Assembly (NCBI GenBank): GCA_032358255.1
Contig: JAULBX010004221.1
Location: forward strand, 62,001-126,000
DNA from: Heterotrichella gracilis
Lineage: Eukaryota; Sar; Xanthophyceae; Tribonematales; Xanthonemataceae
Direction of reading: 5' to 3'
Length of the DNA: 64,000 nt
Every line of letters begins with the position of its first letter. Position 1 is the stretch's first letter. The notes under the pieces are model-generated. The model saw only the letters and a list, made by a program, of their open reading frames with translations, ran no database searches and was not told the origin of the DNA. Position numbers and translations under genes: made by a program. Shown here piece after piece: positions 1 through 60,195 of this stretch.

Positions 1-3000
1 ACATTGCACCCACAGCCTGCGCACAGAAGAGGTATTGAGTAAACCCATAGATGAGTGTTATTTATTATTTCAATGTCCTCTGTATCAGTTTGTGTTGAAA
101 ATGAGAGCAAATGCAGGATAGTGTCATGTACACAATGGGTCACCTTGGGTGCGCAGAAATAAAACTTTAAACCCAAAACCCCCATTAACTAGCCAGTGTC
201 TCTCACCTTGGGTGCACAGACCCTCTGTAGGACCTCGGGCGTCATATCCTTGAGCTCATCATAGGCACTGATGCCAGCAGCGTGCACAAACTCCTGTATG
301 TAGGGCAGGTTCTCACGTGCCCAGTCACACATTGCTTTGCATTGACGGGGATCAGATGCATCCCCACGCAAAACGTGGACTTCTGTCCCGGCTGAGGTCA
401 ATTGGTTCAGTTCCTGCTCTGACAGACTTCCATTTCGGGATGTCAGCACCAATAGCTTGCATCCTAATTCTGCAGCTTGTTGAGCGTATTGCAGGCCAAG
501 ACCCTGCAGAAAATTGCTATGATCAGCCAAGCAGCATACTAGGCTAGTAGCAAATCATAGTGAGCATGTGCAATCCTTGCCCAGATTTTCCACTCCAACA
601 CCTACAAATTTTACAACAAGTACCATAAACGAATTATAATGAAAACTGTATTCCGCATTAAATACCACATAACAAACACCCCATTCCAATATGCTACAAT
701 TATTATATTTCATCATCTTGTTGTACAGTATTTAAACACGTCACAGCTGAGCCTCACCTTGGTCCCGCCTGTTATCATGATGCTCTTTGCAGCGGGTTTG
801 CGCCTGGCCTCCACCTGGCTACCTGCCTGAACCAGGCGCATGGCATATGTCCTGCCATGCTGATATGTCAGTGCATATGCGCTGCTGCTGTACATGCATT
901 GCAACTCTGCAGGGCTCAGTTTAGCACCATTGGGTGGCAAGTAGATGCAAGGCCCATATGACGAGCGCTGCTCCAAAAATAATGTCTTGTGCAGACCTGT
1001 CAGCGCAGCAATTGGGGCATCACTCAATATTTTCCTTACATTTAGGAACAGGCTATTATCTTAGCAAGGCTGTCAAGCAAAAATGCGAAGATATTTACCC
1101 ACAATCGTATTGCCAGAATTCTTGAACAAGACATTTAAAGGTCACAGCGCATCAGTGAAAAACAAAATACTTCACAAGCTTATAAACTTGATGTATAGGT
1201 TAGTTATCAGGTACAGAAAATATGAGACGCACCCGATGCTGCGTTCAGAAAAGCTTGATTTCTTGTGCTACATGTACTACTGCCATCTGACATTGGATTG
1301 CAACGAGATATCAGACCCAATCTCATGGTTGCTGCGGGAGGTTTTGCAAAGCCATGCACGCCAGAAAGCAGGGCTAGTTCCGATAGGTTGCCTGCAAAAG
1401 AAACCAGTAGGCTTCAGCACCAATAAAATGCATCTGCGCCCAAAGTATATTATCAGTTCCCACCCATCCACCTATACTCACCCATGTTGTTTCTCTGCAG
1501 ATTGGATTGCACTGCCAAGCATCCTGTTGCATTTTTGCTCGCCACCAGTTGTAACAGACCCAATCCTGCATCTGCATTCTCATGGGCGTTGTGTCTCAGA
1601 AGTTCACCATTTATGGTCATTGCCTCTGGAGCAGGTTGCAAAGGGGTGCAATGGCTGATATCCACCACATCAGACAGCTGCACGTCAGAGCCATCGCTGC
1701 TGATGAAAAGCCATGATGATGGGCTGTCAGTTGCCGCCTTGAGGCTGACTGGAAGCCACTGGACCATGTAGTCTGAGTCTGCGCACTCAATGCTGTGGTA
1801 ATCATTGGTATGCAGACCTAGCAGCTGCAGGTATGACTGGCCTCCTGTGGAGGCGATGGCAGTCTGTTGCCCACATGCAAACCATGCCAAGGTGTCATGA
1901 GCTGCTATGGGATCTTTGGTTTTCAGGCACCCCAACGCTTGTGGCAGACTGCCAGTTATGAGGGCATGCAGCTGCAATTCAGACTCTGTAAAGCATGCCA
2001 TGAACCCATGGTTTGTTGTGGTGGTGCTGATGCATCCAGTTGCAGATATTGAAGTGCATGCAGTATTGACTGACTTGATCATGCTGCCAGGCAATGGGTT
2101 GTGTATTGGTGCAAGCGCGCCAGATCTTGCTGCGGCATGTGATTGGGTTGTGCCAATGCAGGCATTCAGATGCAAGTGAGTCCCAGTCACAGTGCATGTC
2201 CCCAAGGCAAAGTGCAGCTGACATTGCAGGATTGCGGTCCTGTACATTGCGGAGTTGGCTGCCTTGCCAAATGAAATGCTGCACAAGACAGATGACTGCT
2301 CGGTGGACTCCTTGGACAACAATGCATCTATGGCATTGGATAGCATGATGCCATGCACGTTGTGCAGCCGTGCATCAAGATGGGTGGCGTTGGGCATAAA
2401 AGCAATGGTTGCGCAGCCAGTGCAATTGACCACAGCCTGATACATTGGAGAAGCTTTGGCAAATGGCCAGAAGGCTTGCTGCTGCCAGTGAATGATGGTC
2501 TGTGATGGAGCCCTGGTCCGGATGGGATTGACGATTGCGTGAGCATTCACTCCACTCATCCCCATAGAGCTAGATCCTCCCAAGGCATGCCTATCAAGTG
2601 TTGATGCAGCAGATGCCCGTGGGACCCATGTGGCCACATTGCGCAGGGAGCTAGATTGGGTCAATGCATCCTGCACATAGGGGTTAAGTCCACGCAGCTG
2701 CATCAACCCAGGTGCATGCTTGCCTTGCATACTGAGCATGCACGAGAGCAGCCCTGTGAGGCCAGCAGCGCCCTCTGTGTGGCCATAGCATGACTTGATT
2801 GCTCCGAGGGTGATGTTCTGACTCTCTGGGCTGCCGCCAACTGCTTTGCCCAATGCGCTGGTCTCTATTGGATCACCAAGGCTTGTACCTGTGCCATGAA
2901 AAAAGGTAGTGATGTGATTATGCGCAAGCATACAAAACAACAAAAGGGAGCAAAACAAACAATGGAAAATAGTGTGAGAAAACCTTTCAATACGCTTAAT

Positions 3001-6000
3001 GCAACCCGCATGTTCATGTAAAGTTTAACTTGCAACGCATTACCTGTGCCATGTAGCATGACATACTGCAGGTCTTGAGAGGATAAGGCACCAGCAGACA
3101 GCGCCTTTGCAATAAGCTTGGTCTGGGCTGGACCGCTGGGGGCTGTCAGGCTGCTGGATCTGCCATCTTGGTTGATAGCTGACCCAACAACAGCTGCAAG
3201 TGACTCATTTGGACGCTGGTCACTGCTCAACCCCACAACCATCACCACAAAACCCTCACAGCGGCCATATCCATCAGCAGACACATCAAAGGTTTTGCAG
3301 CGACCGTCAGGCGCCAAGGCATTCAGCTGACAGATGGCCACTGTGGTGAGCGCAGTGAGGAGGCAGTTGACGCCAGCAGCCATGCCCATTTGAGTTGCTG
3401 CGCTACCAATATCTGAGCATGCAACATGGCATGCAACCAGTGAGGATGAGCAAGCTGTGTCTGTGCTCATGCAGGGGCCAGTGAACCCAAAGCTATATGC
3501 TGTCCTGCCAACCATGAATGAAAGGCTGTTGCCTGTTGCAGTTGCGCCAGTCAAGGTGGATTGCGCTTCTGACAGGACATTGGCATATTCTTGGTACATG
3601 CATCCAACATACACGCCTGTTTCCATCCGTCCCAAGGCTGCCGGTGAACCAATTGTAGCGCTCCAAACCTCGTGCAGCAGAATCCTGGATTGAGGATCCA
3701 TTCCCAGTGCTTCAGCTGGGGACAACTTGAACAGGTCGTTATCAAATGACTCCACATCCTCGAGAAAGCCTGCAAACCTGGCGTATGAGCGACCTGGTGC
3801 TGCTGATGCTGAAAAGAGGGCATCTGCATCCCATCTGCTGACAGGGATGACCGAGGAGATGTTGTGTGCATTGCAAAATCTCTGCAAGACTGCCTCACAG
3901 CCACCTGAAGGTGGAGAAAAACAAAATACATGTAAGCAATGGCCCTGTAAGTGTGGAGAAGATGGAGATGTCCATGCAGTAATAACCACCCGTGACTTTC
4001 CAACTAAAACAACGATGGCTATGCAGTAGGAAAAATGACAATAAAGTATATAGAACATAACATAAATGCTTACATGTTATAATTGTTTTTAATTTTATAA
4101 CATATAAGCATGTATGAAACGTTGTATATACTTTATTATCATTTTGCCTATTTAAAACACAAAAATGTGTAATGAGAAGTTTAATTAGCATTTGTAAAAT
4201 AGGAGGTTGTATTATACTGGTGGCCATGCATTAAATAGATTAAAAGTACATAACACATTCTATAACAACTGTTATACTAGTACAAATTATAAGAATAATG
4301 TTATCCATAAATATGCACCCAAAAAAAACCAAACAAAAATAAAAGGAAACATTATAACATTAACATTATAACATTAAAAAATTGTAACAGATAAGCACCA
4401 CTGTGCATAACTGGTCGCAGTGGAGCACATATACCTGCAGAAGGAAGCCTGCAGGAAGCTGACGTGATGACAGGGACACGGCCTTCAGGTGCTTGCTGCT
4501 GGATCATTGGCAATGCCACACCACCATATGGAAGCTCTTGCTTGACAACCTCCAAAGCTGCTGCTGCTTTGGGTACCCTTTTGTACACCTCCGCGGTCAG
4601 AGCTCTGATGGTTGGGAAGTCAAAGATGTCAGTAGCAGAGACTGGCACACCAAACGCTATCTCCATGATGTTGCGCAGCTCCACTGCTGACATGGAATCA
4701 AGGCCAGCTTCCATGAGAGCATCATCAACGTCAATAGTCCTGCCCAAAATGCGAAGAACTAAATCCAGCATCTGGGTTTGCACTTGGGCTAGCTGCAAGT
4801 CTGAAGCAGCTGCTACTGAAGGTACAGGTATGGTGGGAGTGGGCTTGGCAGCTGTTGATGTTGGCATGAACAGCTCAAACACATCTTGTTGATGCTTCAC
4901 AGTGGCGGCAAAAGTTTTCCAGATAAAACTGTTGACAAGCACCTGCATGAAAAAAGCAGTCAGCAAGGTCAACCTCGTATTACATACATCATCACGGCTT
5001 GCGCAACAGCAAGTTCCGCATATTGTGCTCGCAAAGTTAGGAGCTCACCACTGGGGCATGATGGATAGCGCAGCTTTGGAGGGCCTCCAGCCCTTGAATA
5101 GGCTGTATCATGCCCAACCCACTGCGTTGCAGCACCACAGCAAGCGCCTTGTTGCTCTGAGCCATCCCTTGCAATGCCCAAACGCCCCACTGCACGCTTA
5201 TGCCTACAAAAAGGAGTGTACACTGTTATTAGCATTGTGCATGGCAGTGTTGCATTATTTTGTGGCCAGCTACCATGCAATTGGAAACAGTTTATTTCTA
5301 CGTACCTGCAAGTCCCTGGCTGCTCATTGTGGTACAAGATCCATCCATAGACGTATTTGCAGCAGCGTAGTTGGCTTGTCCAGGGGAGCCAAGGAAAGCA
5401 GCAATGGAAGAGAAATACATGCTGAAGACGTTAGCCGATCTGCCCATTGCAGTGCACAGCAAGGAGACTGCAGATGCCTTGGGGGCAAAAACTTGGCGGA
5501 ACGTTTTTGCAGACTGTTTATCCAACATGGCATCATTGAGCACACCAGCTGCATGGAACATCTGGTGTTGTGCAGGCGCTTTGTCAGACTTGAAAGCCGC
5601 AAAGACATCAGTGCGAGAGGAAACATTGCACTGCAAGACAGTGGTGCATGCCAAGCCAAGTGTTGTTGTGGAGGATACGTGTCCTGTGCGTGACAAGCTT
5701 GTGCTAGAAATTTGCCAGATATGTATCCAACCCGCAATCAAGCTGCCCAGACCTGCATTAAAGATGGATAGTATTTACTTCAGAGCAATGAGTAATGAAG
5801 AACAGTTTGCTTATAAGGAGGCGAATAATTACTGCTTTTTAAACAACATTGTTTTATTATATATTTTTAATGAATCAATATCTGATGCTTTGATCTGCTA
5901 AAAACAGCCTTCAGCAAGGGTGTTAAACAAACTTACCCCCAATGCCACCTGTCACAATGGCAGGACTAGGAGTGCCGTTTTCCACAAAGGTTGCAGCATC

Positions 6001-9000
6001 TGACCGATCTTGCAAGCCAAGCAATTGAGGCGAATATTGCACAGCAGCTGCAATGGCAGATTCTGCGCCATTTGCCAGTTGGACAGTGGCATATGGTGCA
6101 CTGCTGATTGTATCCATTTTGATGCAAGTTATCTTGCATTTAGGCAGCTCCTGGATAGCCACCCTTATCAGACCCCACAAAGAGTCCTTCAGTCCATCAA
6201 AACCCTGCCCAGAGGGTGTTTGATGTATGCAGGCTGACAGTTGGTGATGGACCATGAACATCAGTGGCTCATTATGTGGTCGCTGGATCAGTTGCAGAGT
6301 TCGGATGCATGCTGCAGCTGAGTGACTGTTTTGCGGGCCTGCATCTGCAGCGATGCTGCAGTGGTGGCCTCCAAGTGAAACGTCAATGTGCCGTATGGAC
6401 ACATGCTTGTTGGAACGTTGCTGCATGCAATGCTTTGCTTGCCACTGCAGTGCATACTCCATTGCAATTGCTGCCTTTGCTTCTTGCCCAACAGGCGCAG
6501 CCAATCGAATGGGCTTTGATTGCAAGGCTAAGATGGTCATTGCCTTGGCAGACTCCTGCAGCAATGCAAAGTTGGAAAGTGGTCCCTCGCTGCCTGGCTG
6601 GCCCACGTTGACAGCTGTCCAGCTGTGTAGTGGTGAACTGCAGGACCTCTGCAGCGTGATCATGTCACAACCCACAGGAACATGGGCCTGCTGAACCCTG
6701 TTGGTAGCCATTGCGTGGCCCAACACTGCTCCTGCCTGCAGGCAGCTGTCAGCTGTAGCTGGGTGCAGCAAGAAGCCATTGTCAGCACCTTGGGGGCACT
6801 TTACCATTGAAATAGCCAGGGCCTGCTGCTTTGCTGGCAATGCAAAAACGTTGACAGGGACATGATACTGCTCATTAGTTCCCAAGACTGCTGCATGCAA
6901 TGATGTCTGCGCAATTACAGCTTTCAAGTGTGAAACGCCAGACATGGACAAAACTGACGTGGTTGCGTTTGTGACATGAGCTTGCAGCATCTGCGTGGTA
7001 GGGCCCAAAATTGCAGGAGCTGAAATCGTGGAAGAGGACAGCCCAGCATTGTACAGCCTTGACTGGTCTTGCACAGTCATTACTGCATTTGTGGCTATGT
7101 CAAAGAAGGCTGTGGCTGGAAGGATTGCACTCCCAGCAATGGTGTGGTCATGCACCCATGCAAGGTGCTTGCCAACCACGACAATGAACGTTGCCCCAAC
7201 CACTGGCTGTGGCGAGACAGGGTGGTGAAGGAAGGCTGAAGCAACAGGCTCTGGCCAGAAGCTGCAGGATCAGAAAACGTATTTTGGCTTTTTATTGAGG
7301 ATTTAACAGTTAATTATATTTATGTCGAGCCGAATGAAGAATTTCTGTCTAAATATGGTACTTTTTTAATATATATTTTTAATTCATGTCTAATTGTTAC
7401 GCCACATAAATCATGAAACAACGTTTAGGTGGAGCAATACCATCCATAGCCATGTACAGTGGCTAAATACTGTGCATGTCTACATTATTTATTTGTCTCT
7501 TGCTCCCACCAGCTGTGCAAACATCCGGCACATTGGGTGATCTCAACACATACCTGTTGTGTTGCCATGTTGTTGCTTTCCACGATGTCTGAGGGACATG
7601 GTTTGCTTGCTGCACCATTGCATGGCCGTTTGTGCCACTCATGCCAAACGAGCTGGTTCCCATGATGCCTTGGCTGTCCTTGATGTTTGCAGCCATTGTG
7701 CGGTGGATGGTTGGTTGCAGCTTCTTCTTCTGCCAGTCAATGAGCGCGGCTGAAACGTAGGGGTTGATGTTGCGCACCAATGGCACTGAAACATTGGAGT
7801 GCTCCACTGTCGTCATGTACGCAAGGAAGAGACCTGTCAGCCCAGCAGCGCCCTCTGTGTGGCCATAGAATGACTTCACAGATCCCAGGGAAAGGTTGTG
7901 CTGCTGGTGACCTGCTTTGCTGCTGGCTAGCTGCCCCAATGCGTTGACCTCAATGGGATCGCCCAAGGCAGTTCCAGTGCCATGCATTGCAACAAAGCTG
8001 ACATCTGAGAAAGCCAAGTTACTGGTGGCAAGGATGCTTTTCACCAATGAAGTTTGCGATGGGCCGTTGGGAGCTGTCAAGCCACTGGATCTGCCATCTT
8101 GGTTGACGCCAGTGCCGGTGACAATCACTGCCTTGGCTGCCGCTGGCATCCTGGAGAGGAGCACCACCGCAAAGCCCTCACCTCTACCATAGCCATCCGC
8201 AATTGCATCAATAGTCTTGCACCTGGCCACAGGAGAGAGCGCACCCAGACCGCAGATAGTGCACGAGGTGATGGGAAGCAGCATGGCATTCACACCACCA
8301 GCCAAGCCAGCTTGGGTTTCCTTGGTTTGGATACCCTTGTGAGCAAGGTGGAGGGTCACGAGGGAGGAGGAGCAGGCTGTATCTGTGCTGATGGAAGGAC
8401 CTTGCAAGCCAAAGGTGTAGGACACCCGACCCACGAGGTAGCTGATGCCGTTGCCTGTTGCAATATTGGGGCTGATCTTGTTGCCCAGGTTGTACAGCCT
8501 CTGTGTGTACTCTGTGTACATACAACCAATGTACACACCCGTGTGGGCCAGCTGCGCTGCTGGGGATGTTGCCAGGGCTTCATGGGAGATCTCCAGCAGG
8601 TGGCGGCACTGTGGATCCATGGACATGGCTTCCAAATAAGTTGACCTGCAGTGATTGGGAAGAAAAAACGTTTTCTATAGATCACTTGATTATGAACAAT
8701 CGTCTGATTTTATTCTAATAACCTGTCCACAAGAATGAAAGCAATTTGTCATTTCCAAATTTGGTAATTGGTTTTGAAGTGCCACAGTCAGCGCCGCAGG
8801 GATTGAAGACATTAAGGTTGGCACAACAGGGTATTAGCAGGAGGACTTTAATATATCACGGTATTAGGGTTTAGGAGGGGTTTTACGCATTTATTGCAGG
8901 CAAAGTCATACCTGAACATCTCAGCATCAAAAGCGCTTATGTCACCGACAAAGCTCGCCAGCCTGGCATACATCTTGAGGTCGTTGGTGGGCTCTGGTGA

Positions 9001-39000: not shown

Positions 39001-42000
39001 CTGATGGAAGGGAGTATGATTGGCATTGAATGAGCGTTTGCGCTGCGTCAACATGCTGACCATAGCTGGCACTGCCTACAGCCATTGGTTGAGGAAGAAG
39101 GTGCATGGTTTGGGGCTGAGCGGCAGCTAGGTAGGAGGCAATTGCTTGCACAGTCGGCAAGTCAAACATCAACGTTGCGGGAAGATCCATTCCGTATCTT
39201 GCAGAGATTGTGTTTTTTAGCTCCACAGCCCCTGTAACAGATCACCGTGAATTATAGCAGATCAAGGACAGACAACGAGCTAAAGTTCAAATGTCGGATC
39301 GCTGTTAGGGTAAATCGCTCGAGGTCAAAGGTAACCATTTGACCCCAAAGTAAGTGAGTTAAGATAAATCCAAGCTTCTTAAACAGGCGCCTTGGAATAG
39401 GGTTTAGCAAAGGTCACACAAGGGATTATCCCTCCTGTTGCATACTATGCATCCTACCATTACATCAGATCAGATCCACGAAGCAAGTGCCAAGGCAACC
39501 ATTGACCCATTGATGCAGACGCTGTCCAAGCAACTTACCAATTGAATCCACTCCAGCTTCCATCAGAGGCTGATCCACAGAAACCTGCAGATTTAGCGTC
39601 TGCTGAATCATCTCAACCACACTCCTGGCAATACCACCCACAGACTCCCCTGGTGCTGCCACCATCCGTGATTGTGCATATGTAGTGGGAGCATCTGCCA
39701 CTGTAGTCACCAAGCTGGCTATGTGCTGTGCTAGCTGGTTGATTGACGGGTAGTCAAACATGACTGTGGCAGACAGCTCAATGCTGAACTTTGTGTTTAA
39801 ATTGTTTCTTAGCTCCACGGCTGCAATGGAGTCCAGTCCTGCCTCCATCAGTGGCTGATCCCTGGAGACTAAACCTCCCAAGAGGGCGCTCACAGTGGAC
39901 TGCACATCCTGCATAACGAACAAACCACATCTGAGCCATTGGAACACGTACAATGTGTACAGGATGTGGGATTTGGCATCATCTGGATCAGACATCTTTG
40001 CGCAGGTGGATCTGCCTGTACGGGGTGAAATCTTGAATATGGAACACCAGTTTTACAGTAACTGTGTGGCTGCTGCCACCATGGTGCATGTGCACAAAGG
40101 AATACATTGCATGACCAAGCAGCTGGACATAGTTAAGCTAAAGAAATCGTTAAAGCAATTTCAGAATGGATCGTTGGTGCCACCTACCTGCAACACATTG
40201 TCTCTGTGAACCATTGTGACAGAAACAGCAGGCTGATAGTCCAACTGCTGCACGGTCTGTGACCTGCTGGAGATGAACGCTGCCAGGTGGCTGATGGTTG
40301 GGTAGTCAAACATGGCAGTGGCTGGCAGCTCCACAGAGAACATGGTGGTCAGCTGGTTGCGCAGCTCAACTGCAGCGATGGAGTCCAACCCTGCCTCCAT
40401 CAGAGGCTGGTCTGCAGGTATGCTGGAGCTGACCAGGCGGTTGACCACGCCCTGTAGCTCCTGCAGAAAGCACGCACACATATAATTTATAAAAAACAAG
40501 GCAAAACAAAGTTGAGATCTTGAGCAGCCAGGTGACTACGCCCATGCAGAGGGGAGACCATATGAACAAACAAATACACAGATAATAGATAGAAAATAAC
40601 AGGGAATAATATTCAAAAAATTGTATGTATTTTTGGCTGACTACACCCTGTAGCTCCTGCAGGAGGCACATACGGAAAAATAATCGCCAGGCTGAAATGC
40701 AACAAAAATGCAAGATTGCTACCTGGATCATATTGGGATGAGATGTTTTTTGTGGCGCCATGGGTGCCTTAGGATGGGCTGTAGCCAGCGGTTTGGTGGG
40801 TGGTGAAGGTCTCTGCATGTACTCTGGAGGAATGTGGCCATCACTGAAGGCAGCGATGACTGCCTGGCGTGAAAGCAGGTCAGGCAGCTGGTGTGCTGCA
40901 CCTGCCATGGTGATGTCTTGGAAGCCAACCTCTGTGAGGATGGCTCTCCAGCCTTCCCTGCTCAGTAGGGGTGTCCCTGAAGGAGCAACCCCATATCTGT
41001 TACTCAGTTTCCTACCTACTGAACTACCTGAACATCCGGATCCTAATGTATCTTTATAAACCAGTCGTGGTGAATTGCAAAAAGAAATACAGCATTTGCA
41101 GAACTCTTGACAAGATAGGATATTCACAAGTGCTTCCATGCATGTAGAAAATGTCACATCCATCAAGATCAAGCAACAGTGTGCACCAGAAGGCCACACC
41201 CTTCACAGGATGTGTGCAGCGGGCAAGGCAACAGCACACACATGCATGGAGCGCATAGATGCACCAAACTTGATGCATTTCCGCCCAAAAATGCATTAAT
41301 GCCAAATTTTTATCATTCATACCTTTCATCCGCCGGTGCTCATCATCAAACAGCCACCAGCCCTCAGTCAAGCCAAACGTCAGCGTCAGAAAGTCCGTCT
41401 TCCAGATCAGCTCATTGACCAACAAGACACCGTTGGTCCTCAACAGAGTTTTGCAGTGGCTCAAGGTGTTACCAATGTTGGAAGTTGCATGCAGCACATT
41501 TGTTGCAAACACGATGTCAAACTGGCCCCTGTTGAGCCCTTGTTGGACAATGTTCTTCTCCACATCAAGGTGCTTGAAGGTTGCAAACGGGTAACGTGGA
41601 CCATAGGTTTTGCGTCCATAGTTTATGAGCTGGTGGGAGATGTCTGTGTAGAAAAACTCAACGTTGTCAGCAAAAGGAAGGAGCTCCTCCATAACCACAG
41701 CAGAGGTGCCACCTGACCCAGACCCAATTTCTAGAAGTTTTATGCGCGCTGAGCTGCCAACTAGGCTTATCTTCAGCTTCACGTAGGCTACCACAGCCGC
41801 TGCCAGCTGCTCGTTGAAGGGCGCTGATATTTTTGAGTTTTTGTAAATTGGCTCCACAAGCGCTGGGGAGCCGTTGGGGAACATGACGTCAGTGACCTGG
41901 GTCTGATTGGTGAGTATTTGAGGCAGGCTGTGAAGGCACACACCCAGCAGCTTGACACTGGATGCGATGTCAACTGCTTCTGTCATCAACGCCTGCTCAG

Positions 42001-45000
42001 TGCTATCCAGGGACGCTGCCTCTGGAGAGTGTACCGCTGCTTGAGCTTCCCAGCAATCCTCACTGGTGGGTTTCACATACCCATCAGCTTCCAGAATGCC
42101 TAAAATTTCAGGCAAGAGCCGGTGATACTTTGCGGTGATGGCTTCCTGCAGCTGTTGAATGGTATGTGCATCCCCAGCATGGACAAAGCATCCCAGCTGC
42201 TGCATGGCTGCCAGCAGGGAAAGCCTTGTCCAGGAGGAGAAGGTTGCCACTGTGCCATGGATGCTTGGAGGCAGGTCGTTGCGGATCTGTAGCTGGAACA
42301 GGCTGTCCAGCAAACTCTGCGGAGTTGCCTGCATCTCCACTGGCATGCGCAACACACCTGCAGGCACACAGAGCATGGTTGAACACCATGACCAGGTGAT
42401 GAACCAACCAATGCAACGTGCATACCAGGGATCATGTAATGCAAATGAGCAAGCAACATATATCATTTCTGATGGCCGTGATCAAGGAGGACAAAGACTA
42501 ACCATTGCTGACTCCCAGTACCACCCCTTGGCGGTCTAGCAGAGCCGGTGCTAGATTCTGTTCACCAACAACCACAGGACGCAAGAAACCGCAATCCTTC
42601 ATTAGCCGTTTCCAGGTATCCTTACTCAGCAGTGGGGATCCTACACAGGACAGAGGACTGGTAAACAAATGACCTTTTGCAATCACAGCTATACGCAAAA
42701 TTAAAATGTTCATGCATACACAGTTATGCATGAACATTTTAATAACAAATAACAAATAACTGATTTTCTTTTACAAGCACTGATCAGACAGACTCATGAT
42801 GCATGCAAGCGCACCTGGGATCCTGTACTGTTCATCGCTGTATAGCCACCACCCATCGGTGAGCCCAAAGGTGAGCGTCAGATAGGCGGTTTTGGCCATG
42901 AGCTCATTCACAGCCAGGATGCCGTTTTGCTTCAGCAGCACCTTGCAGTTTGTGGGGGGCATATCATGAATTTGCATTTTTTGACACATAAAATCAAAAG
43001 AAGAAAATGATAGAAAATGAGACAATTAATGACTAAATTGGTTTATGTGCTTGTGATTCCTGCCACGAATAGGCGCACTTGTCAAGATGACAAGCAAATA
43101 AAACTTATTGCCCTACCTTGCAGTTGTACAGGGTGTCCTGCATGTTGGCAGTGGCATGCAGCACATTGGTTGCAAAGATGACGTCATAGCTGTGTCGCTG
43201 GTAGCCCTGCATCTCAACATCCTTCTCCACGTCCAGGTGCCTGAACTCTGCAAAGGGGTACTGCAGGCCATATGTCTTCCTGCCATAGCTGACAAGCTGC
43301 CCAGAGAGGTCAGTGTACACAAACTCGACCCTGCTCAGCGCTGCAAATTGCTGGAGCATTTGCAGAATGACCACTGAAGTGCCACCAGACCCTGATCCAA
43401 TCTCCAGGATCCTGATTGTATCACTAGAATGCTGCTGCAATCGAAGGGACACATAGCTCTGGAGCGCTGCAGCCAGCTGCTCGTTGAAAGGCGCTGATAG
43501 CTTCGGATTTTTGTAAATAGGTTCCACCAGCTCTGGGGATCCATTGGGGAACATGACGTTTGTGATGGGGACTTTTCCTACTAGGATGTCTGGTAGGGCG
43601 TCTAGGCAGGCTGACAGGAGAACCACGTTGGTTGCAATGTCCGGCACAACCTGGCTGATGAGGGAGCCCTTTGTTTGGGCAAGGGCTGCAATACTAGCAA
43701 CAAAGGAATCCTCTGCGATGCGGGCTGTGGCTGAAAGGGAATCCACGTCATCCTGCTGCACTACACCTGCAGAAGGATAAAGTACACCAGTACTGTTATT
43801 TGCCGCCATTCTGCACAGTTTATTAGCCACTGGTCCGCATTTGTTTCTGCTCAATTAGCATTCTGCGACAGTTTCAAAACGACATAAAAAGAAACAAAGA
43901 GAAATAGGGCATCCTGTCACCTACCTGCGGAAGAAAGAAGCAAAACTATTTCTGCAAGCAGCCTATGGTACTTGGGAAGGACCACGCTGCGAAGCTGCGA
44001 CGTTGACATTGGCTCGTGGGGTTTGGTGAAAAAGCCAAGCTGCTGGAGGGCGTGCAGCAGGCAGACTATGATCCACTGCTCAAACTGGGAAACACCCTCC
44101 GCAAACCCCTCCTGCACCAACAGTTCATGTGGTCATTGTCAGCAATGGAATGGCATTTAATTTAAGTTCACACAAAACAGAAAAAGAACAAAATGAATAA
44201 TAAGCACCAATATTATAATGATCATATCGATAGTGTTACATTGACACAAAAGTGGGAATGTAGGCAGGCATAGCAGGAATCTACAGCAAAGCTGCCCATT
44301 CACTATAAACTGTTCATCAGCTGCAAGCCGAACGCACCTGCAAATCATTCCTGATGGGCAACAATGTAATGAAATCAAAGAAATCGGAACTGGGCTCTGG
44401 GCAGGGCACCACGGGCACCTCAACTTGAGGCACCTCCACACAGGTGCTGGCCACTGTCACTGCCTGTGCACCTGCTCCCATAGCCTGTAGCACTGGCCTG
44501 ATCTGCACATCCTTGAGCAACAAGTGTGTGGAGGAGGTGGAAGCCAGCAGCCTGTTATGGGTGATCAGCGCCCCCGGTCTATCTGGAGAGGGATGCACCT
44601 CAACAGAAGTGAACTTTGGCCCTTCACAAGGGGATGGCTTATACAGACCAAAGGCAGCTGACACCACCGGACCACGCTCTGATTGGTCCCTCAGGACCCC
44701 ACCAATGTGAATGCAGTTGTCTGTCTCTGCGGGGTGGCTGTGGAAACCTGTGCTGTGCACATGAAGGGAGGTAATGGTGCCGATTGCACGCTTCACAATC
44801 TTGGCATCTTTATCTTTGGATCCGCTGGCGATGTCCAAAATGGCATGAGCTGGCAATCTCCCAGGTGTCAATAGCAGCTGTGCCATATTACGTTCCCCTT
44901 GGATCTGACTCACAGATGCTGACAGGTGCGCTGCTGACCTGGCACTGGCAAGGTTGCTGACCTGGATAGATCCAGTGCTGTAGTTGGCTGTGCATCCCAG

Positions 45001-48000
45001 TAGGAGCCTCTGGCCGGGGCTGGGGATGATCACGGGGATTGGCAAAGAGGCCCCGCTGATGCATGGGGATGCTGCGCTGTTGCTGCTGGTCCCAGAGGTT
45101 GCTGGTCCCATCCCAGCGGCCAGGAGGACTGCCGAGGCATAGGCTAGCTCCAGCAGCATCGCGCCTGGGCAATTGAAAACATGTAGATGAAAGATGGAAA
45201 ATTTAAAAACACTAAAAAGATGTGTACTACGCAGCTTGTCCATAAACAGCTGTTTAGCCTAGGCACCATTTATAAGTGTTAGCAATGAGAGAGACTGTGC
45301 CCTCCTGTCCACCACCTAGGTCAATGCTTCATGCTTTAGGGTTTCTCCTACCTGGGCAGATCAGCTTCCCCTGCACTGCGTGGTGCACCAAAAAGCTGAA
45401 CGCAGCCCTGTTGAATGCCAGCTGGAAGGTCGTTGAAGCCCTGCTGACAGGCGCAGCTGTGCACAGCAGCTGGTGGGAGGTGACTTGGTACCAGTACCGC
45501 TGGTGGTGGAACCGGATGGGTGCCAGGGGGAGGACTTTGGCCATGGAGCGCGGTGTCTGTAGGAGAGCGTGTGCGTTTGTGCCCTGGTATGCAAATGCGC
45601 TGATGGCTGCCGCGTATTGCAGGGAGGCTGTCCACTCGTTCTCCATCTGAGAGGGTGCCGCTTGCCTGCGAGCATAAGTAAATGATCATACAAGTATGTG
45701 CAGACCATTGATTTTCCATGGGTGTAATTACCATAAATTGATGAACGAGGTTGAAATTCAAGGAAGAATGACTACGCGCCTGCCTCATGGGCAAGGGCAT
45801 TGGTTGTTAACTGCACACAATGAGTTAGTGCCAGGCTTGGAGGCGGCCATCCCCTCACCTGTCCCTAAGAGATCAGGGTTTGGGTTGCCAACTGTAACCC
45901 TACCTGCGCACGTAGAAGCCCCGCAGGTATCCCACTTTGTCGTACTGTTCGCTGGCGCTTGAGATGAAGCGGTTGAATGTGCGCAGGTGCGGGAACTCAA
46001 GGGAGCTACCCTGCTGCAGCAGGCGCGCGGCGGCACCTGCCAGGTAATAAAACAAAAAATATGAATATGAGACAACAAAAACAGCCACTGTGCAGAAAAT
46101 GCTGGGAGGTTTGATACAATGCAAATCAACATTGTAGCATTACCCTCCTGCCACTAATGCCACTCGTCATTACCCGTCCAGTCCCAACATGTCCGCTATG
46201 GCCCCTACTCTACCTGCCATGCCCACCACTCCTGCGGCCGGCTCTGTGTGGCCATGGCGGCCTGGAGTTCTGGGGCCATGCTCGCGTGCTTTGAGGTGCG
46301 GTACACTACAAGCGCTCACTTTCTTCCCTCTCTACCCATCCATAACCCTCCTACCAGCTATTCAACCCTCATCACAATGCCCTGCGCACTGGGCCCTCCT
46401 ACCATACCTGCCATGCCCACCACTCCCGCAGCTGGCTCCGTGTGCCCATGTCGAGCCTTGGCAGCCTGCAGCTCCAGGGTCATGCTGACGTGCTTGGAGG
46501 TGCGGTAGACAGCAAATGCTGCGCTGAGCTCGATGGGATCACCGACTGCCGTGCCTGTGCCGTGCATTTCGAGGGTGGCCACGCAGCTGGCGGCGATCTT
46601 CCCGTTTTGGAGGGCGTCGCCAATCACCTGAAAACAAAGTAGACTATTTAAGTGGTGCGCGCGCCAAAACCCTGAAGCCCTAAAGGGCTGGCACTGATCC
46701 CACCATTGTGGCAGGCATCCCACTTCCTTTGATGTGCAAACAAGAAGTTGGAGATTGGACGAGTATGCCTAAAAAGTAGGCATGCTTGTAGTGATGATTT
46801 ATTTGAGAAGAAAAGAGAACAAATGTAGTGCAACACAAACTGGAGAGCCTCAAACCCTCAGGGTGTTTGCCAGCCTGCTGTGTCTATCACCTGCTGCTGT
46901 GCGGGGCCAGAGGGCGCTGTGAGGGAGCTGGACCGCCCATCCTGATTGACAGCCGTGGACAGCAGCGCAATGGCCGACTCGGTGTAAGGCGCGTCCCTTG
47001 GGAGGGTCACCGATTGCAGAAAATGAACCACGCAAGCCTCTCCCCTGCCATAGCCATCCCCATACTGGTCCAGCGTCTTGCACCGCCCGTCGGGCGCCAG
47101 CATGCCTGCTTTGCCCAGCACCGCCATGGTCTGTGGGCGCAGGATGAGGTTGACGCCGGACACCAGCGCGGCCTGGCAGTCGTTCCTGGCCAGGAAGGAG
47201 GTTGCTGCCACGTGGGCGCCTACAAGGGAGGCGGAGCAGGCGGTGTCCACGCTGATGGAGGGACCTGCGAGGAGGGGTTAGGGTTAGGTTAGGGTTTGAG
47301 GTTTAGGGGGCAGGCTGCGCCTACTAGGGAGGCGGAGCAGGCGGTGTCCACACTGATGGAGGGACATGCGAGAAGGGTGTAGGGGTTAGGGTTTGGAGTT
47401 AGGATTTGAGGTTAGGTTTAGGCGGAGCAGGCGGTGTCCACGCTGATGGAGGGATCTGCAAGAATAGTGTAGGGTTTAGGGTTTACATGTAGCAAGACGT
47501 GCCATGCCATGTCCATGGTGTACCCAGCCTGCTCAGCTGAACCCTAATCTCAAACCCCAAAGCTTGAACCCTAACCATAACCCCTCCTCGGAGGTCCCTC
47601 GCAATACCAAGTCAAACCTTTTAAGGGAACGCACTCGCACGCCCCTCCTACCCCACCTCAAAGCTTAGTGAGTATGACATGCAGCCACAGGCCACGCTGA
47701 ATTAACGCTGAATGCTGTCAGCTCAACCCTAAACCTTAAAGTCTCAACCCTACCTGTGAGGGCCAGGGAGTAGGACATACGGCCACAGGCCACGCTGAGC
47801 GTCCCAGAAGTCGCCGAGAAGGCGTTGATACCCTGAGTGCCCAGCGTGTTGAGAAAATACTCAATAAACTGCAGCCCCACTGTGACGGCCACCTTGCGCC
47901 CCGCCCGCTTAGGGTTTAGGGTTTCCAGGCTGGAGCTGTGCAGGGCTGTGTAGCCGCACTGGAGCAGCAGGCGCTGCTGCGCGTCCATGAACATGGCTTC

Positions 48001-48629
48001 CTGGGGCGGGGTGCTGAACAGCTGCTGGTCAAAGAGATCCGCACCCGCGATGAAAGCTGCAAAGCGCCTGGGCTCCTGGGTGGCTGGCGGCCACTCGCTT
48101 TCCACATCCCAGCGGTCCCGGGGGAGCAACCTGGGGATGGTGGAGGAAAACTCAAGGTGGAGGAAATTTCGGTGGGGACATCCAGGGGGTTTTAGCCCGT
48201 AATGTGACTATGAGGAGCGCATGCTGCCCTGTGTTTGTATGAGATGGCACTGCCGTCGTGGCAGTGTATTGTTTAGGGTGTAGGGTGTAGACATGGGGTG
48301 TGGTAGCCAGGCGCCTGCAACATACACCTGAAAAGCTAAGGGGGTGCAATGGCAAGAAGCTGCTATCATACCAAACAGCAGACTACAAGAAGGGTCGGGT
48401 ACAGAGTCAAGTAGCAAAAAATGGAAGTCTGGATGAGAAAGCACCTGCTGGCATCTGGTGTGGCATCTGGTGTGGCAGCCAAGCGGGAGGCGGTGGACGT
48501 GATGAACAGCCTCTGGACCTTTTTCTCTGCCTCTTCTTTGATTTGGAGCTGCTTCTGAAAGGGCGTGAGGTCTAACAGCTCCAGCAGCTCCTCATCGTCG
48601 AAATCTATCCCCACAGTCACCCCCGGCAT
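1..48629 (-). CDS. Giant multimodular type I polyketide synthase without in-module acyltransferases (5' part, runs off left edge)
   Basis: This intron-split gene encodes an assembly-line PKS that would build a polyketide in the cytosol by decarboxylative condensation on carrier-protein-bound thioesters. Seven KS domains are visible, each with an active-site TACS-type Cys and the HGTGT and GH(T/A)E histidines. Between them lie DH, MT, ER, KR and ACP domains in PKS order, with no AT (no GHSxGE-type domain) after any KS. The chosen start is the ATG at 48,629, in an AACAAGATGCC context with an in-frame TAG two codons upstream. Its first exon (to about 48,446) joins in frame to the KS1 exon. Domain order is continuous and I see no internal stop-promoter break, so one gene is the simplest reading, but two or more adjacent genes cannot be excluded. 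The last exon visible (16-1) continues a KR beyond the window. Known relatives are the giant PKSs of chlorophytes, including Chlamydomonas PKS1, implicated in zygospore wall maturation. PKS identity is near certain; the single-gene model is about 0.7. Confidence 0.9.
2886..3053 (-). repeat. Intron flanked by 13-bp direct repeats at both splice sites
   Basis: The 13-mer TACCTGTGCCATG occurs at 2,886-2,898 and again at 3,041-3,053. On the gene strand both copies read CATGGCACAGGTA, with the cut at CAG|GTA, so the 155-bp intron (3,043-2,889) equals the repeat period. It interrupts the KS7 HGTGT motif. Confidence 0.9.
3910..4432 (-). other. Long AT-rich intron in KS7
   Basis: This stretch of about 0.5 kb separates the conserved KS start (RLPSAG) from the RWDAD exon. 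It is AT-rich, with short ATTATAACATTA direct repeats near 4,350-4,375, and I see no coding or RNA signal in it. Confidence 0.6.
4565..9140 (-). other. PKS module 6: KS6-DH6-KR6-ACP10
   Basis: Most of KS6 lies in one long exon (about 8,640-7,560), unlike the other KSs, which are cut into pieces. It has [11 protein letters not shown] (about 8.37 kb), [11 protein letters not shown] (about 7.98 kb) and GHTEGAAG (about 7.85 kb), and an unusual end GTNGHAM in place of GTNAHAx. DH6 has [13 protein letters not shown] (about 7.13 kb) and [10 protein letters not shown] (about 6.76 kb), both complete. KR6 is split in its cofactor loop (VTGGIGG, then GLGSL-like after the intron at about 5.75 kb) and has FSS...NYAAAN (about 5.38 kb). 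ACP10 has MEAGLDSM (about 4.7 kb). Expected unit: alkene. Confidence 0.85.
9240..9490 (-). other. Degenerate acyl carrier protein (no phosphopantetheine serine)
   Basis: The exon directly after ACP9 keeps carrier-like spacing ([17 protein letters not shown], then a helix and FNVTIP), but the position of GxDSx is occupied by LTPIQ. There is no Ser to carry the prosthetic arm. It lies between ACP9 and the N-terminus of KS6. It may be a decayed third carrier or serve as a structural linker. Confidence 0.65.
14036..14275 (-). repeat. Intron flanked by 13-bp direct repeats at both splice sites
   Basis: ACCTGCAATGACA is present at 14,036-14,048 and 14,263-14,275, 227 bp apart. On the gene strand both ends read TGTCATTGCAG|GT, and splicing joins VIAG to ALQDAG in KS5. 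The intron is AT-rich between the repeats. Confidence 0.9.
16450..16513 (-). repeat. Introner-like repeat copy starting at a 5' splice site (copy a)
   Basis: On the gene strand the intron begins GTAGGGGACATTGTGGACAG and continues GAGGGTGCTGCCCTC. The same opening is found at several other introns in the window. It follows the KR4 exon ending GMAAG. Confidence 0.7.
17717..17744. other. Perfect 13-bp inverted repeat upstream of the KR4 exon
   Basis: TAGGATATTTTGC and its reverse complement are separated by two bases, in the intron just 5' of the acceptor at about 17,669. Confidence 0.8.
21233..21462 (-). repeat. Threefold duplication of the KS4 exon acceptor region
   Basis: The acceptor and exon start (gene strand GCGCAG|GTGTCTGGTGGCC) are repeated upstream in the intron at about 21,330-21,368 and 21,432-21,462. 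ATTAGGG-type motifs lie between copies. The rest of the 0.4 kb intron up to the ACP6 exon shows nothing recognisable. Confidence 0.8.
22370..22585. repeat. Low-complexity GGTAAAAG-type tract in an intron
   Basis: The plus strand is a purine-rich array of variants of AAAGGTAAAAG over about 200 bp. On the gene strand it is a long pyrimidine tract between the KR3 tail and the linker exon. Confidence 0.75.
22585..23835 (-). other. Ketoreductase KR3
   Basis: The cofactor loop [10 protein letters not shown] lies at about 23,820. LGGVLADA and the catalytic FSS...NYAAAN follow at 23.3-23.1 kb. The conserved tail VQWGGWDVG lies at about 23.02 kb and a C-terminal helix segment at 22.76-22.59 kb. All catalytic residues (Ser, Tyr, Asn) are present, and the Asp in LAD matches the B-type hallmark position. 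Its first intron starts with the shared repeat sequence reported separately (about 23,614). Confidence 0.85.
23532..23614 (-). repeat. Introner-like repeat copy starting at a 5' splice site (copy b)
   Basis: The intron after the first KR3 exon begins GTAGGGGATGGTGTGGACGG and continues GAGAGAGTGC, matching copy a with a few substitutions. Confidence 0.65.
24030..25690 (-). other. Enoylreductase ER3
   Basis: This is a medium-chain dehydrogenase-type ER that reduces the enoyl thioester with NADPH. It shows [17 protein letters not shown] (about 25.65 kb), GxGDxVFGI (about 25.3 kb), the cofactor loop [13 protein letters not shown] (about 24.85 kb), [10 protein letters not shown] and [10 protein letters not shown] (about 24.6 kb), in the order known from bacterial and fungal ERs. 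It is split over four exons. It is the only ER found in the seven modules. Confidence 0.9.
25750..25878. mobile_element. MITE-like fold-back element in a PKS intron
   Basis: Two arms of about 60 bp (25,750-25,811 and 25,819-25,878) are imperfect inverted repeats of each other. The outer ends match as AAGGAAGCGCYTRTAGGT and the inner ends as GTRTTACAGYTGSCTAGG, with about a 7-bp centre. The element encodes nothing. The size and near-complete palindrome are typical of a non-autonomous fold-back transposon. I could not establish a target-site duplication with certainty. Confidence 0.75.
26055..26140 (+). repeat. Introner-like repeat copy in reverse orientation (copy e)
   Basis: The plus strand reads GGTAGAGGACATAGTGGGCA, then GGAGGGCATTGCCCTTCTCTC, and ends GGACAGGCTGCGCAGC, matching the gene-strand copies a and c. 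Here the element is antisense to the gene and does not coincide with a splice site. Confidence 0.65.
28262..28404 (-). repeat. Introner-like repeat copy starting at a 5' splice site (copy c)
   Basis: The intron in KS3 begins GTAGGAGACATAATATTAG, followed by TGGACAGGAGGG. A second internal GGGGCATAGTGGACAGG lies about 65 bp on. It ends with GCGCCTGTTCACAGACAGGC. Confidence 0.65.
29496..29590. repeat. 50-bp tandem duplication in a KS3 intron
   Basis: TTGTGCAAAGTYATGGTGAA and the following 25 bp occur at 29,496-29,540 and again at 29,546-29,590 with a few substitutions. Confidence 0.85.
31560..33070 (-). other. Ketoreductase KR2
   Basis: One long exon (about 33,070-31,914) holds the structural half and the catalytic half of a short-chain dehydrogenase-type KR, and the end follows at about 31,790. 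The NADPH loop is ITGGTGALG, the catalytic Ser is in IFSSLAAF, and Tyr and Asn are in SYAAAN. The loop [10 protein letters not shown] lacks the Asp at the third LDD position often used to call B-type stereochemistry, so the hydroxyl configuration may differ from KR3, KR5 and KR6. Confidence 0.85.
36359..36629 (-). repeat. Exon-edge duplication in KS2 (acceptor side)
   Basis: The exon start at 36,359-36,450 has an upstream intronic copy at 36,551-36,629. The copy is nearly identical apart from a short internal deletion and includes the CCTGCAG acceptor. Confidence 0.9.
37488..37651 (-). repeat. Exon-edge duplication in KS2 separated by CCCTAAA motifs
   Basis: The exon end at 37,588-37,651 (encoding [16 protein letters not shown] with its donor) is copied almost unchanged at 37,488-37,551, a 100-bp offset with about five differences in 64. 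The spacer contains AAACCCTAAACCCTAACA. The intronic copy keeps the donor. Confidence 0.9.
37795..38283 (-). other. Long intron in KS2 with microsatellite
   Basis: About 0.5 kb without coding signal. It contains a short CA-rich tract followed by a run of A (38,125-38,158). Nothing else is recognised. Confidence 0.5.
38980..40465 (-). other. Three tandem acyl carrier proteins (ACP1-ACP3)
   Basis: Three phosphopantetheine sites lie in a row: GLDSIAA (about 40.38 kb), GLDSIAA (about 39.83 kb) and GVDSIG (about 39.54 kb). Each is preceded by DQPLMEAG and followed by an (A)VEL(R/K)N helix and a (Y/L)P(T/S)I/V-type segment. ACP3 is cut by an intron just after DSIG (phase 1) and resumes at about 39,225. 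Tandem carriers in PKSs usually raise throughput. Confidence 0.9.
40730..42365 (-). other. C-methyltransferase domain MT2 (tandem copy)
   Basis: This second SAM methyltransferase follows MT1 directly. It has the motifs [12 protein letters not shown] (about 41.73 kb), [14 protein letters not shown] and FGLTEGWWL (about 41.36 kb) in the same order as MT1. The segment [16 protein letters not shown] is nearly identical in both, so the pair arose by internal duplication. Both SAM loops are intact, so both could be active. The tandem arrangement would fit two successive methylations (gem-dimethyl), or redundancy. A Pro/Lys-rich linker follows and leads to ACP1. Confidence 0.85.
42701..42742. other. 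Perfect 18-bp inverted repeat in an MT1 intron
   Basis: TTAAAATGTTCATGCATA (42,701-42,718) is followed after six bases by its exact reverse complement (42,725-42,742). It could fold as a strong hairpin in the pre-mRNA. No coding sequence is involved. Confidence 0.85.
42940..43125 (-). repeat. Intron flanked by 11-bp direct repeats at both splice sites
   Basis: ACCTTGCAGTT is found at 42,940-42,950 and 43,115-43,125. On the gene strand both junctions read AACTGCAAG|GT, inside MT1 (YNCK joined to VLLKQNG). Confidence 0.85.
45230..45351 (-). repeat. Introner-like repeat copy starting at a 5' splice site (copy d)
   Basis: The intron inside DH1 begins GTAGGAGAAACCCTAAAGC and contains GGTGGTGGACAGGAGGGC about 40 bp later. 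It splits DH1 between LICPG and AMLLE. Confidence 0.6.
46211..46509 (-). repeat. Exon-edge duplication in KS1 (exon 3' end copied into the intron)
   Basis: The exon end at 46,405-46,509 (encoding [14 protein letters not shown] and its donor) has a decayed copy at 46,211-46,305 inside the following intron. The copy preserves the TACCTGCCATGCCCACCACT donor-side sequence but carries an internal rearrangement. An introner-like stretch adjoins it. Confidence 0.85.
47218..47461 (-). repeat. Threefold exon-edge duplication at the KS1 active-site exon
   Basis: The acceptor-side exon start (GGAGGCGGAGCAGGCGGTGT and onward, encoding the DTACSAS region) is present in the exon at 47,218-47,270. It is repeated in the intron at about 47,319-47,375 and 47,420-47,461. 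TTAGGGTT-like telomeric motifs lie between copies. The intron copies are shortened. Confidence 0.85.
47266..47755 (-). other. Repeat-rich intron in KS1
   Basis: This intron of about 0.5 kb holds the two intronic copies of the active-site exon start and several TTAGGG/CCCTAA-type motifs. At about 47,677-47,705 it also holds a decayed copy of the preceding exon's end (GTATGACATGCAGCCACAGG against GTAGGACATACGGCCACAGG at 47,770). Confidence 0.75.
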
Positions 48630-51600: not shown

Positions 51601-52623
51601 CCCTGCAGCAATTGCAAGCTTTCCACAAAGGAACCGTTTACTGCGCGCAAGCGACTCAGATTGAACTCTTTTGTGTTTCTTTTGGTCCTCAATTGAGCCT
51701 GGCTGGAGTTTTACTGGCTAATTCGACGCACTTTGTTGTTGCCTGGAGCAGGGTCACTCGGGCTGCGCCACCCTTGTTTGTGCCCCTACCAAGCGCCTAC
51801 CGTTGCTAATTACTCTAACTTAGAGCGGGTTCTAACCCACCATCCGTTTGTTGTTAGACAGTAGAGCGTTGCATGCTTGGGTCCAGTGAGGTGGGGTTGG
51901 CTCGACGCGTTGCCCCTGCATCGTTCTTGTGCATGCAGTGTAGTCACTGAAGGGGGTTCTGCACTCGCGCACGCCTGGTTGACACCCAGTGCGCGCACTG
52001 CTTGATGGGTAGCTCGTCTGTCGAGTCAGGTTAGGGCAAACAGGTCTAGCCATGCACGCATCCGCCTTTGGTGCCGTCGTAAGCATGCTCACCACACACC
52101 CCTTTGCACCATGCAGGCTCAACCACCAAAAGGACAGCAGGAGCCCTACTGACCTAGCACCCCGCTTTTTGCTGCATCGGTAGCCCCCGTCAGATATCCG
52201 AGCTGCTGTACCTTGGAGCCCCGCAGCAGTTTGTCAGCCTGCAGCCAGTCGAACGATCCCTCCCGCCACACCAGATCGAAGGGGATCGTGAAGGGGCAAA
52301 CCCAACAGCACGCACGGCACAGATAGCAGGTGCGAACCAAGCTCGTACCACTCGCATCTATCTGGCTTGGTTTTGCACGGGTTGATGACGTTGGAGGTCG
52401 ACTAGCTTCTCGAAGGTGGCCGTGGCTCGAGCTCCATTCGAGGCAGCTGCAGATCACCTAGTTGCACTGTGGCTCAAACGCCTGTTTCGTTCCTGTTGCA
52501 GGTACTCCGCGAGGTTTCAAGGGTGCAAGCCCCACCCTCAGGTTTTGCCTGCCCTTGGTTCCAAGAGCCACGTAGGCCGGCACCAGGACTTGCCTGCTGT
52601 GGGTAGTCTTGAGGCACCATACC
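48630..52623. other. Intergenic region between divergent genes
   Basis: Four kilobases lie between the PKS start (minus) and the secreted-protein gene (plus), so both promoters should be here. A TATA-like ATATATAAG lies at about 48,859. The open frames present (for example 49,327-49,716 on the minus strand, about 129 codons) match nothing I recognise and lack supporting structure. Part of the stretch (50.8-51.1 kb) is markedly GC-richer. No rRNA or tRNA was recognised. Confidence 0.5.
51288..51312. other. Perfect 10-bp hairpin in the intergenic region
   Basis: AAGCACGGCA, a five-base loop, then TGCCGTGCTT. Its role is unknown; it has no attached U-tract of bacterial terminator type. Confidence 0.7.
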
Positions 52624-60168: not shown

Positions 60169-60195
60169 CTACGCCAGGTACCTGAACATGTTTGG
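60125..60195 (-). repeat. Duplicated cullin 3' terminus
   Basis: The last codons (CAGGTACCTGGCGTAGGGGG on the minus strand) recur just downstream at about 60,140-60,120 as CAGGTACCTGGCTTGGGGGG, without the stop. Confidence 0.8.

Follow-up and report, generated by a model that had tools for sequence, protein, structure and literature searches.

The window analysed here is a stretch of 64,000 bases (C44:62001-126000), most of whose minus strand is taken up, in the gene model, by one intron-rich gene for a giant type I PKS. The predicted start codon, whose first base is window position 48629, is immediately preceded by an in-frame stop, and the stop codon lies at C44:32320-32322 (window about -29680), giving a gene span of about 78,000 bases. 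The preliminary description had placed the PKS at 1 to 48629, which is right as to the start codon, but the gene runs about 29.7 kb past base 1. The model contains 128 exons, 83 of them whole inside the window, and predicts a protein of 16,899 residues (1,778 kDa) with 12 KSs and no internal stops. GT-AG borders are present at 125 of its 127 junctions, and the splice consensus learned by the gene finder is CAG/GTAAG for donors and TGCAG/G for acceptors.

The sequence analysed comprised 124,000 of the 138,080 bases of contig C44 (the window, 50 kb to its left and 10 kb to its right), and genome searches covered the 68.5 Mb assembly of 903 contigs. Exons were called by an in-house, splice-aware gene finder trained on long minus-strand frames of the PKS gene itself, and the first in-frame stop downstream of the thioesterase was taken as the end of the model (untrimmed model, 17,054 residues). 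The finder missed at least one exon, the last of the first methyltransferase (42501-42641), which was recognised by eye, so that the real protein is slightly longer than 16,899 residues. The Pfam match of KS1, like those of KS2 and KS4, begins at profile position 31, and an exon upstream of the KS1 match could therefore be missing. No loading module was seen in the PKS model, and window 48400-55999, which covers the region upstream of the start, gave no Pfam match at E ≤ 0.01 and no adenylation domain in its three minus-strand frames. Neither flank of the gene showed a recognisable PKS-related neighbour; at window 55197-64000 and about 52-58 kb the finder predicts, on the minus strand, a gene that looks cullin-like by eye and, on the plus strand, a protein of secreted appearance.

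Module and domain organization

The Pfam scan was run on 34 pieces covering about 14,800 of the 16,899 residues (residues 1-6269 in five pieces, then sets of 10, 8 and 10 exons, and the C-terminus), with KR7 and KR9 among the roughly 2,100 residues outside it. The domain kinds recognised are KS, DH, methyltransferase (MT), ER, ketoreductase (KR), carrier (ACP) and thioesterase (TE). The whole gene contains HGTGT and the KS end motif twelve times each, indicating twelve KSs, seven of which lie in the window, as the preliminary estimate of at least seven modules had it. The DS motif is kept in 18 carriers. All PKS domains described below lie on the minus strand.

Module 1 has the order KS-DH-MT-MT-ACP3. 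It begins with KS1 (45556-48455; PF00109, 2.9e-41; PF02801, 1.9e-22) and DH1 (44580-45475; PF21089, 4.9e-7, and both motifs), followed by MT1 (42501-44400) and its tandem copy MT2 (40893-42316). PF08242 matches in two stretches across both MTs (7.4e-30), MT2 being identified by PF08242/PF08241 and by alignment, in which both near copies keep an 11-residue motif and NVLHAT; tandem MTs had been proposed beforehand. A reading of MT1 as truncated was dropped once its last exon had been found. Three carriers, ACP1a, ACP1b and ACP1c (39166-40767; PF00550 in three stretches, 1.2e-41), close the module. Module 2 (KS-DH-KR-ACP2) consists of KS2 (35319-38737; PF00109, 6.7e-42), DH2 (33320-34887; PF21089, 2.1e-6, and motifs), KR2 (31741-32446; PF08659, 1.1e-27) and the carriers ACP2a and ACP2b (30343-31196; PF00550 in two stretches). 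The KS2 coding region contains an exact 42-bp direct repeat (36402-36443 and 36581-36622, about 180 bp apart), both copies of which are read in the model, and a similar repeat is visible at the protein level in KS1 near 46212-46262. The KS2 repeat reflects a local duplication with a pseudo-exon, or else an error of the model.

Module 3 is made up of KS3 (27888-30202; PF00109, 8.3e-52), in which HTAC replaces DTAC at the nucleophile motif with the Cys kept, DH3 (26732-27753; PF21089, 9e-9), ER3 (24115-26192; PF13602, 1.6e-13; PF08240, 3.3e-8), KR3 (22754-24055; PF08659, 1.4e-30) and ACP3 (21799-22133; PF00550, 6.6e-14). The ER, previously described as an early lone domain, is thus part of a KS-DH-ER-KR-ACP module. 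Module 4 (KS-KR-ACP) contains KS4 (19091-21192; PF00109, 5.4e-42), a region at the DH position with neither DH match nor DH motif (17660-19085), KR4 (16520-17060; PF08659, 2.2e-31) and ACP4 (15729-15924; PF00550, 1.8e-8).

In module 5 (KS-DH-KR-ACP2 plus a dead carrier), KS5 (13624-15270; PF00109, 6.5e-40; PF02801, 5.7e-20) is followed by DH5 (12148-13531), which has both motifs and matches PF21089 (1.3e-5) and PF14765 (0.083) below cut-off, by KR5 (10835-11345; PF08659, 9.7e-23), and by ACP5a and ACP5b (9775-10520; PF00550, 3e-13 for ACP5a; DS motif in both). The third carrier (9231-9456) is degenerate, with no Ser by eye and a PF00550 match below cut-off (0.042), a correction to the triple and double carriers first described. 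Module 6 (KS-DH-KR-ACP) comprises KS6 (7609-9156; PF00109, 1.9e-42; PF02801, 3e-28), DH6 (6513-7188; PF21089, 1.4e-8; PF14765, 2.3e-7), KR6 (5162-5973; PF08659, 2.1e-23 across most of the domain) and ACP6 (4606-4801; PF00550, 2.4e-13). Module 7 (KS-KR-ACP) has KS7 (2523-4486; PF00109, 2.8e-51), a region at the DH position with neither DH match nor DH motif pair (1596-2520), and KR7 (1-775, running off the window), which is assigned by alignment and by a tree with Pfam-confirmed KRs.

Modules 8 and 10 share the order KS-DH-KR-ACP2, module 9 is KS-KR-ACP, module 11 is KS-DH-KR-ACP with DH11 assigned from motifs only, and module 12 is KS-KR-ACP-TE. PF08659 recognises KR11 (2.4e-28) and KR12 (1e-26). 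The thioesterase that ends the line (PF00975, 1.8e-19) can be aligned with 3qmw and enzymes of the RifR type; the position of the 3qmw Ser is occupied by the Cys of GTCLG.

Modules 1, 2, 3, 5, 6, 8, 10 and 11 have both DH motifs (H and D), and the direct succession of KS and DH noted earlier for every module applies to these eight. The motif pair is absent from modules 4, 7, 9 and 12, whose scanned pieces (for module 12, one piece of 183 residues) gave no Pfam DH match. The DH exceeds the Pfam cut-off in modules 1, 2, 3, 6, 8 and 10 and falls below it in module 5, and DH11 has both motifs yet no Pfam DH match in the larger part that was scanned.

Search for acyltransferases within and outside the PKS gene

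The initial claim that the PKS lacks an acyltransferase (AT) domain is borne out by several searches. PF00698 has no match at E ≤ 0.5 in the 34 pieces. A local AT profile, built from three FabD-type ATs that include both algal ATs described below and finding those two at about 1e-158, has none at E ≤ 50 in the whole 17,054-residue model. In the six frames of the 124 kb of C44 the best score of this profile is E 6.7, and no unassigned exon there, the place for an AT that had been considered at the outset, does better; single-sequence searches with each AT reached at best E 0.17 among the matches listed. Genome-wide, TIGR00128 and PF00698 have no match on C44 at E ≤ 10 (13 and 4 candidates scored), and no AT genetically linked to the PKS was recognised. 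The KS-AT linker model PF16197 gives a short, weak match in nine of the twelve modules (24-35 of 111 positions, all below cut-off). A DNA pattern for the AT nucleophile elbow has no match in the window, and two matches to such a pattern were rejected, neither being an AT. As to the GHSxG context first described as missing between each KS and the next domain, a single GHSMG string is present in the gene, within KR4 rather than in an AT.

Two readings of the locus would contradict that of a single AT-less gene. Several independent genes, already named as a possibility in the preliminary description, could have been merged by the gene finder. The boundaries between modules 5 and 6, 10 and 11, and 11 and 12 each fall within single exons, none of the 123 introns counted in the model exceeds 530 bp, which leaves no space for separate genes, and the domains all lie on the same strand and in order. 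Gene finders can fuse neighbours, as the first runs did in merging the PKS gene with everything around it, but a cluster of separate genes is highly improbable here. Alternatively, AT domains could be present, too diverged or too split among exons to be detected. An exon-by-exon PF00698 search at E ≤ 0.001 misses both of the alga's own ATs and is hence weak alone, and in the four DH-less modules the KS and KR are separated by 404-501 residues, which could house an unrecognised domain. However, the spliced protein matches neither Pfam (over the residues scanned) nor the local profile, and in the eight DH modules only 45-104 residues lie between the KS end motif and the DH histidine motif, too few for an AT when set against the 319 positions of PF00698. 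Hidden AT domains are therefore hardly credible.

Discrete ATs, predicted to lie elsewhere in the genome, were found. TIGR00128 at E ≤ 10 has 14 matches in the whole genome (eight on C290, five on C104, one on C1 and none on C44), and these include two intron-containing, free-standing FabD-type ATs, on C104 and C290, contigs other than that of the PKS. The spliced C290 gene codes for an intact FabD-type AT with a plant-like stretch of 30 residues, and the sequence upstream of it resembles, by eye, a plastid transit peptide; this gene looks like a plastid MCAT. On C104 (L027:3638-6806), ankyrin repeats are followed by a FabD-type AT in one frame (PF00698, 1.1e-24; ankyrin, 2.6e-11), and the join between the two parts lies within a single exon of 164 bp (L027:5396-5559). 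The ATG of this gene follows an in-frame stop, and no leader peptide is seen by eye.

Fatty acid synthesis requires a plant-like plastid MCAT, which means that any alga should have one discrete AT; only the second is informative. Since C104 has no leader and C290 has a transit-like one, the ankyrin-AT is taken as the likelier partner and hence as a candidate trans-AT for the PKS, although it might instead serve another acyl carrier, for example a mitochondrial one. A fusion of ankyrin repeats and malonyl-CoA transacylase was not found in a literature search that included the available text of PMC8448359.

The FabD on C1, the only strong match in the exon-by-exon PF00698 search, was not counted because its surroundings look bacterial by eye. 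Open-frame KS genes of 420 residues are found on C442 and C111; these contigs and C1 measure 0.6-0.9 Mb, and one or more bacteria may be included in the assembly.

Relationships among KR and KS domains

KR4, KR7 and KR9, all from DH-less modules, form a KR group of their own (support 100/100). A W fingerprint, presumably typical of A-type ketoreductases, occurs in three of the four KRs of DH-less modules (KR4, KR7 and KR9, not KR12) and in none of the seven KRs of DH modules. The Asp of the L-D-D motif, which presumably marks B-type KRs, is found in six of those seven (KR10 has V for L, and KR2 reads L-D-S) and is missing from KR4, KR7, KR9 and KR12.

The KS tree, midpoint-rooted and built with no outgroup, contains two groups that are supported at 100/100 in the unrooted sense: group A (KS2, 3, 6, 7, 9, 11 and 12) and group B (KS1, 4, 5, 8 and 10). 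The six KSs downstream of a DH-KR module all belong to group A, and the three downstream of a DH-less module (KS5, KS8 and KS10) all belong to group B. With KS1 (first), KS2 (after the MT module) and KS4 (after DH-ER-KR) left out of the count, KS group is associated with the upstream module (6/0 vs 0/3; Fisher, p 0.012) and not with the KS's own module (p 1.0); the former value becomes 0.033 with KS4 as an exception and 0.018 when KS12 is omitted, DH11 being weak. KS1 and KS4 fall in group B and KS2 in group A, so membership of group B does not require a DH-less module upstream.

KS5, KS8 and KS10 form one group of the tree (support 92/90; a count equally low in 8 of 500 shuffles), and the six KSs after DH-KR modules need two changes on it (17 of 500 shuffles). 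In Mantel comparisons of KS3-12, KS distances correlate with those of the upstream KR (r 0.587, p 0.0054) and the upstream carrier (r 0.305, p 0.023), as opposed to the module's own KR (r 0.027, p 0.35) and own carrier (r 0.035, p 0.38). The correlation with the upstream KR disappears when KS5, KS8 and KS10 are removed (r 0.033, p 0.44), and the upstream evidence thus amounts to one group of three. On the strength of these three, KS relatedness appears to track the upstream module rather than the KS's own. The group could stem from one old two-module duplication, which the mutual identities of 49-52% show not to be recent.

Contigs C355, C348 and C561 carry at least six further KSs with KR, ER, DH and carriers, and no AT was found on them; they are read as one or more further trans-AT PKS genes, maybe the Chlamydomonas-type enzyme in pieces. 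Six of their KSs divide between the two sides of the KS tree (100/100), on long branches and with unsettled bootstrap. Three fit the upstream rule: one on C561 (6-9 kb), in group A downstream of DH-KR; one on C355 (40-43 kb), in group B downstream of ER-KR as with KS4; and one on C348 (49-52 kb), in group B downstream of a KR for which no DH was seen. A second KS of C355 (19-28 kb), a member of group A, comes after a KR with no more than a doubtful DH match (E 0.03) and may contradict it; DH detection is weak on these contigs, and two of the six KSs have no readable upstream module. Such a rule for algal KSs was not found in the titles or abstract openings of the papers searched.

Proposed assembly line and related systems

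The gene very probably encodes a single, non-iterative, 12-module trans-AT type I PKS that would depend on a discrete malonyl-CoA:ACP transacylase and make a hydroxylated polyene-like product. As read from the domain order, the AT would act in trans, with the transacylase, likelier the ankyrin-AT and alternatively the plastid-type MCAT, loading malonate onto every carrier. A starter activated externally would enter at KS1, and module 1 would add a C2 unit and one or two alpha-methyl groups. Modules 2, 5, 6, 8, 10 and 11 would leave double bonds, module 3 a saturated unit, and modules 4, 7, 9 and 12 hydroxyls, those of modules 4, 7 and 9 being of one stereochemical type. The Cys-type thioesterase would then release a hydroxylated polyene-like chain of about 24 carbons plus the starter. 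Together with the named ankyrin-AT candidate and the rule linking KS groups to upstream modules, the 12-module reading yields testable predictions of the partner, the methylation pattern and the hydroxyl positions.

Enzymes of this kind, multimodular trans-AT PKSs, are already known from chlorophytes, and the gene described here is a variant. The splice style, the plant-like MCAT and the kind of PKS point to a green alga as the host. Chlorophyte trans-AT PKSs in the MDa range, with up to 14 KSs per protein, are described in the accessible part of PMC4661987, according to which integrated ATs are missing from almost all noniterative algal PKSs. Like CrePKS1, VcaPKS1, CvaPKS1, CsuPKS1 and others in that text, the present PKS is an AT-less protein of MDa size with many modules, predicted from one intron-rich nuclear gene, and it shares tandem ACPs with VcaPKS1. 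It has 12 KSs, as against 11 in CrePKS1 and VcaPKS1, and a mass of 1.78 MDa, where each C. variabilis PKS has 1.2 MDa; the Lig domain assumed for CvaPKS1 has no counterpart here (all PMC4661987). MTs are absent from most algal trans-AT PKSs in the same account, and CsuPKS1 of Coccomyxa, compared by description only, carries one (PMC4661987), whereas tandem C-MTs are found here.

A conserved chlorophyte megasynthase, the Chlamydomonas type, is also AT-less and highly reducing and ends in a TE; in the portion of PMC7073580 available it begins with an adenylation domain and has no reducing domains in its last two modules. The first module here contains two C-methyltransferases and three carriers, and the TE has Cys for Ser. 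The earlier suggestion that the product pathway is probably undescribed is reasonable, since the architecture differs from this enzyme, CsuPKS1 being judged by description only (PMC7073580; PMC4661987). Chlamydomonas PKS1 is linked to the zygospore or zygote wall in the accessible text of PMC6912462, PMC9832785 and PMC12636532, and by analogy the product of the present PKS may contribute to a resistant cell wall.

Two further alternatives concern the partner and the lineage of the PKS. The plastid MCAT of C290 might alone serve as a shared transacylase, the ankyrin-AT doing other work; C290 does encode an intact enzyme. That account is somewhat unlikely, since the C290 AT is preceded by a transit-peptide-like sequence that the C104 protein lacks and the megasynthase is expected outside the plastid. 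Instead of a separate lineage, the PKS could also be the ortholog of Chlamydomonas PKS1 in which the first and last modules have changed. Both are long chlorophyte-type trans-AT lines with a terminal TE, and the Chlamydomonas gene has 11 KSs (PMC4661987, as far as its text was available). However, no adenylation domain was found on C44, where none of 21 genome matches to PF00501 lies (13 of 42 candidates scored), KR11 and KR12 stand in the final two modules, where the Chlamydomonas type, as far as described in PMC7073580, has no reducing domains, and the AT-less PKS contigs C348, C355 and C561 could be that ortholog instead. Orthology is thus unlikely.

Bacterial trans-AT PKSs place a DH after the KS with no AT between them and contain MTs in line, and their KS relatedness follows the upstream module. 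The algal PKS shares these features, but differs in having introns and no recognised neighbouring AT gene. It is conceivable, though doubtful, that the exchange unit is the same as in bacteria (tailoring domains, carrier and the next KS) and that a dedicated ankyrin-AT docks on the megasynthase through its ankyrin part. The product would then be readable from KS clades, as for bacterial trans-AT PKSs, and a dedicated ankyrin-fused AT would be a type of trans-AT not found described in the literature search.

An argument for bacterial trans-AT ancestry from the closest structure was rejected. The structure 7zma tops all four KS structure queries, but its chain holds two KSs, which raises its score, and the better-matching of the two swaps regardless of KS group. 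The KSs of the algal PKS are tied to solved trans-AT KSs no more closely than to CurL; for KS6, 7zm9 and 7zmc, presumably the single KSs of 7zma, score below CurL.
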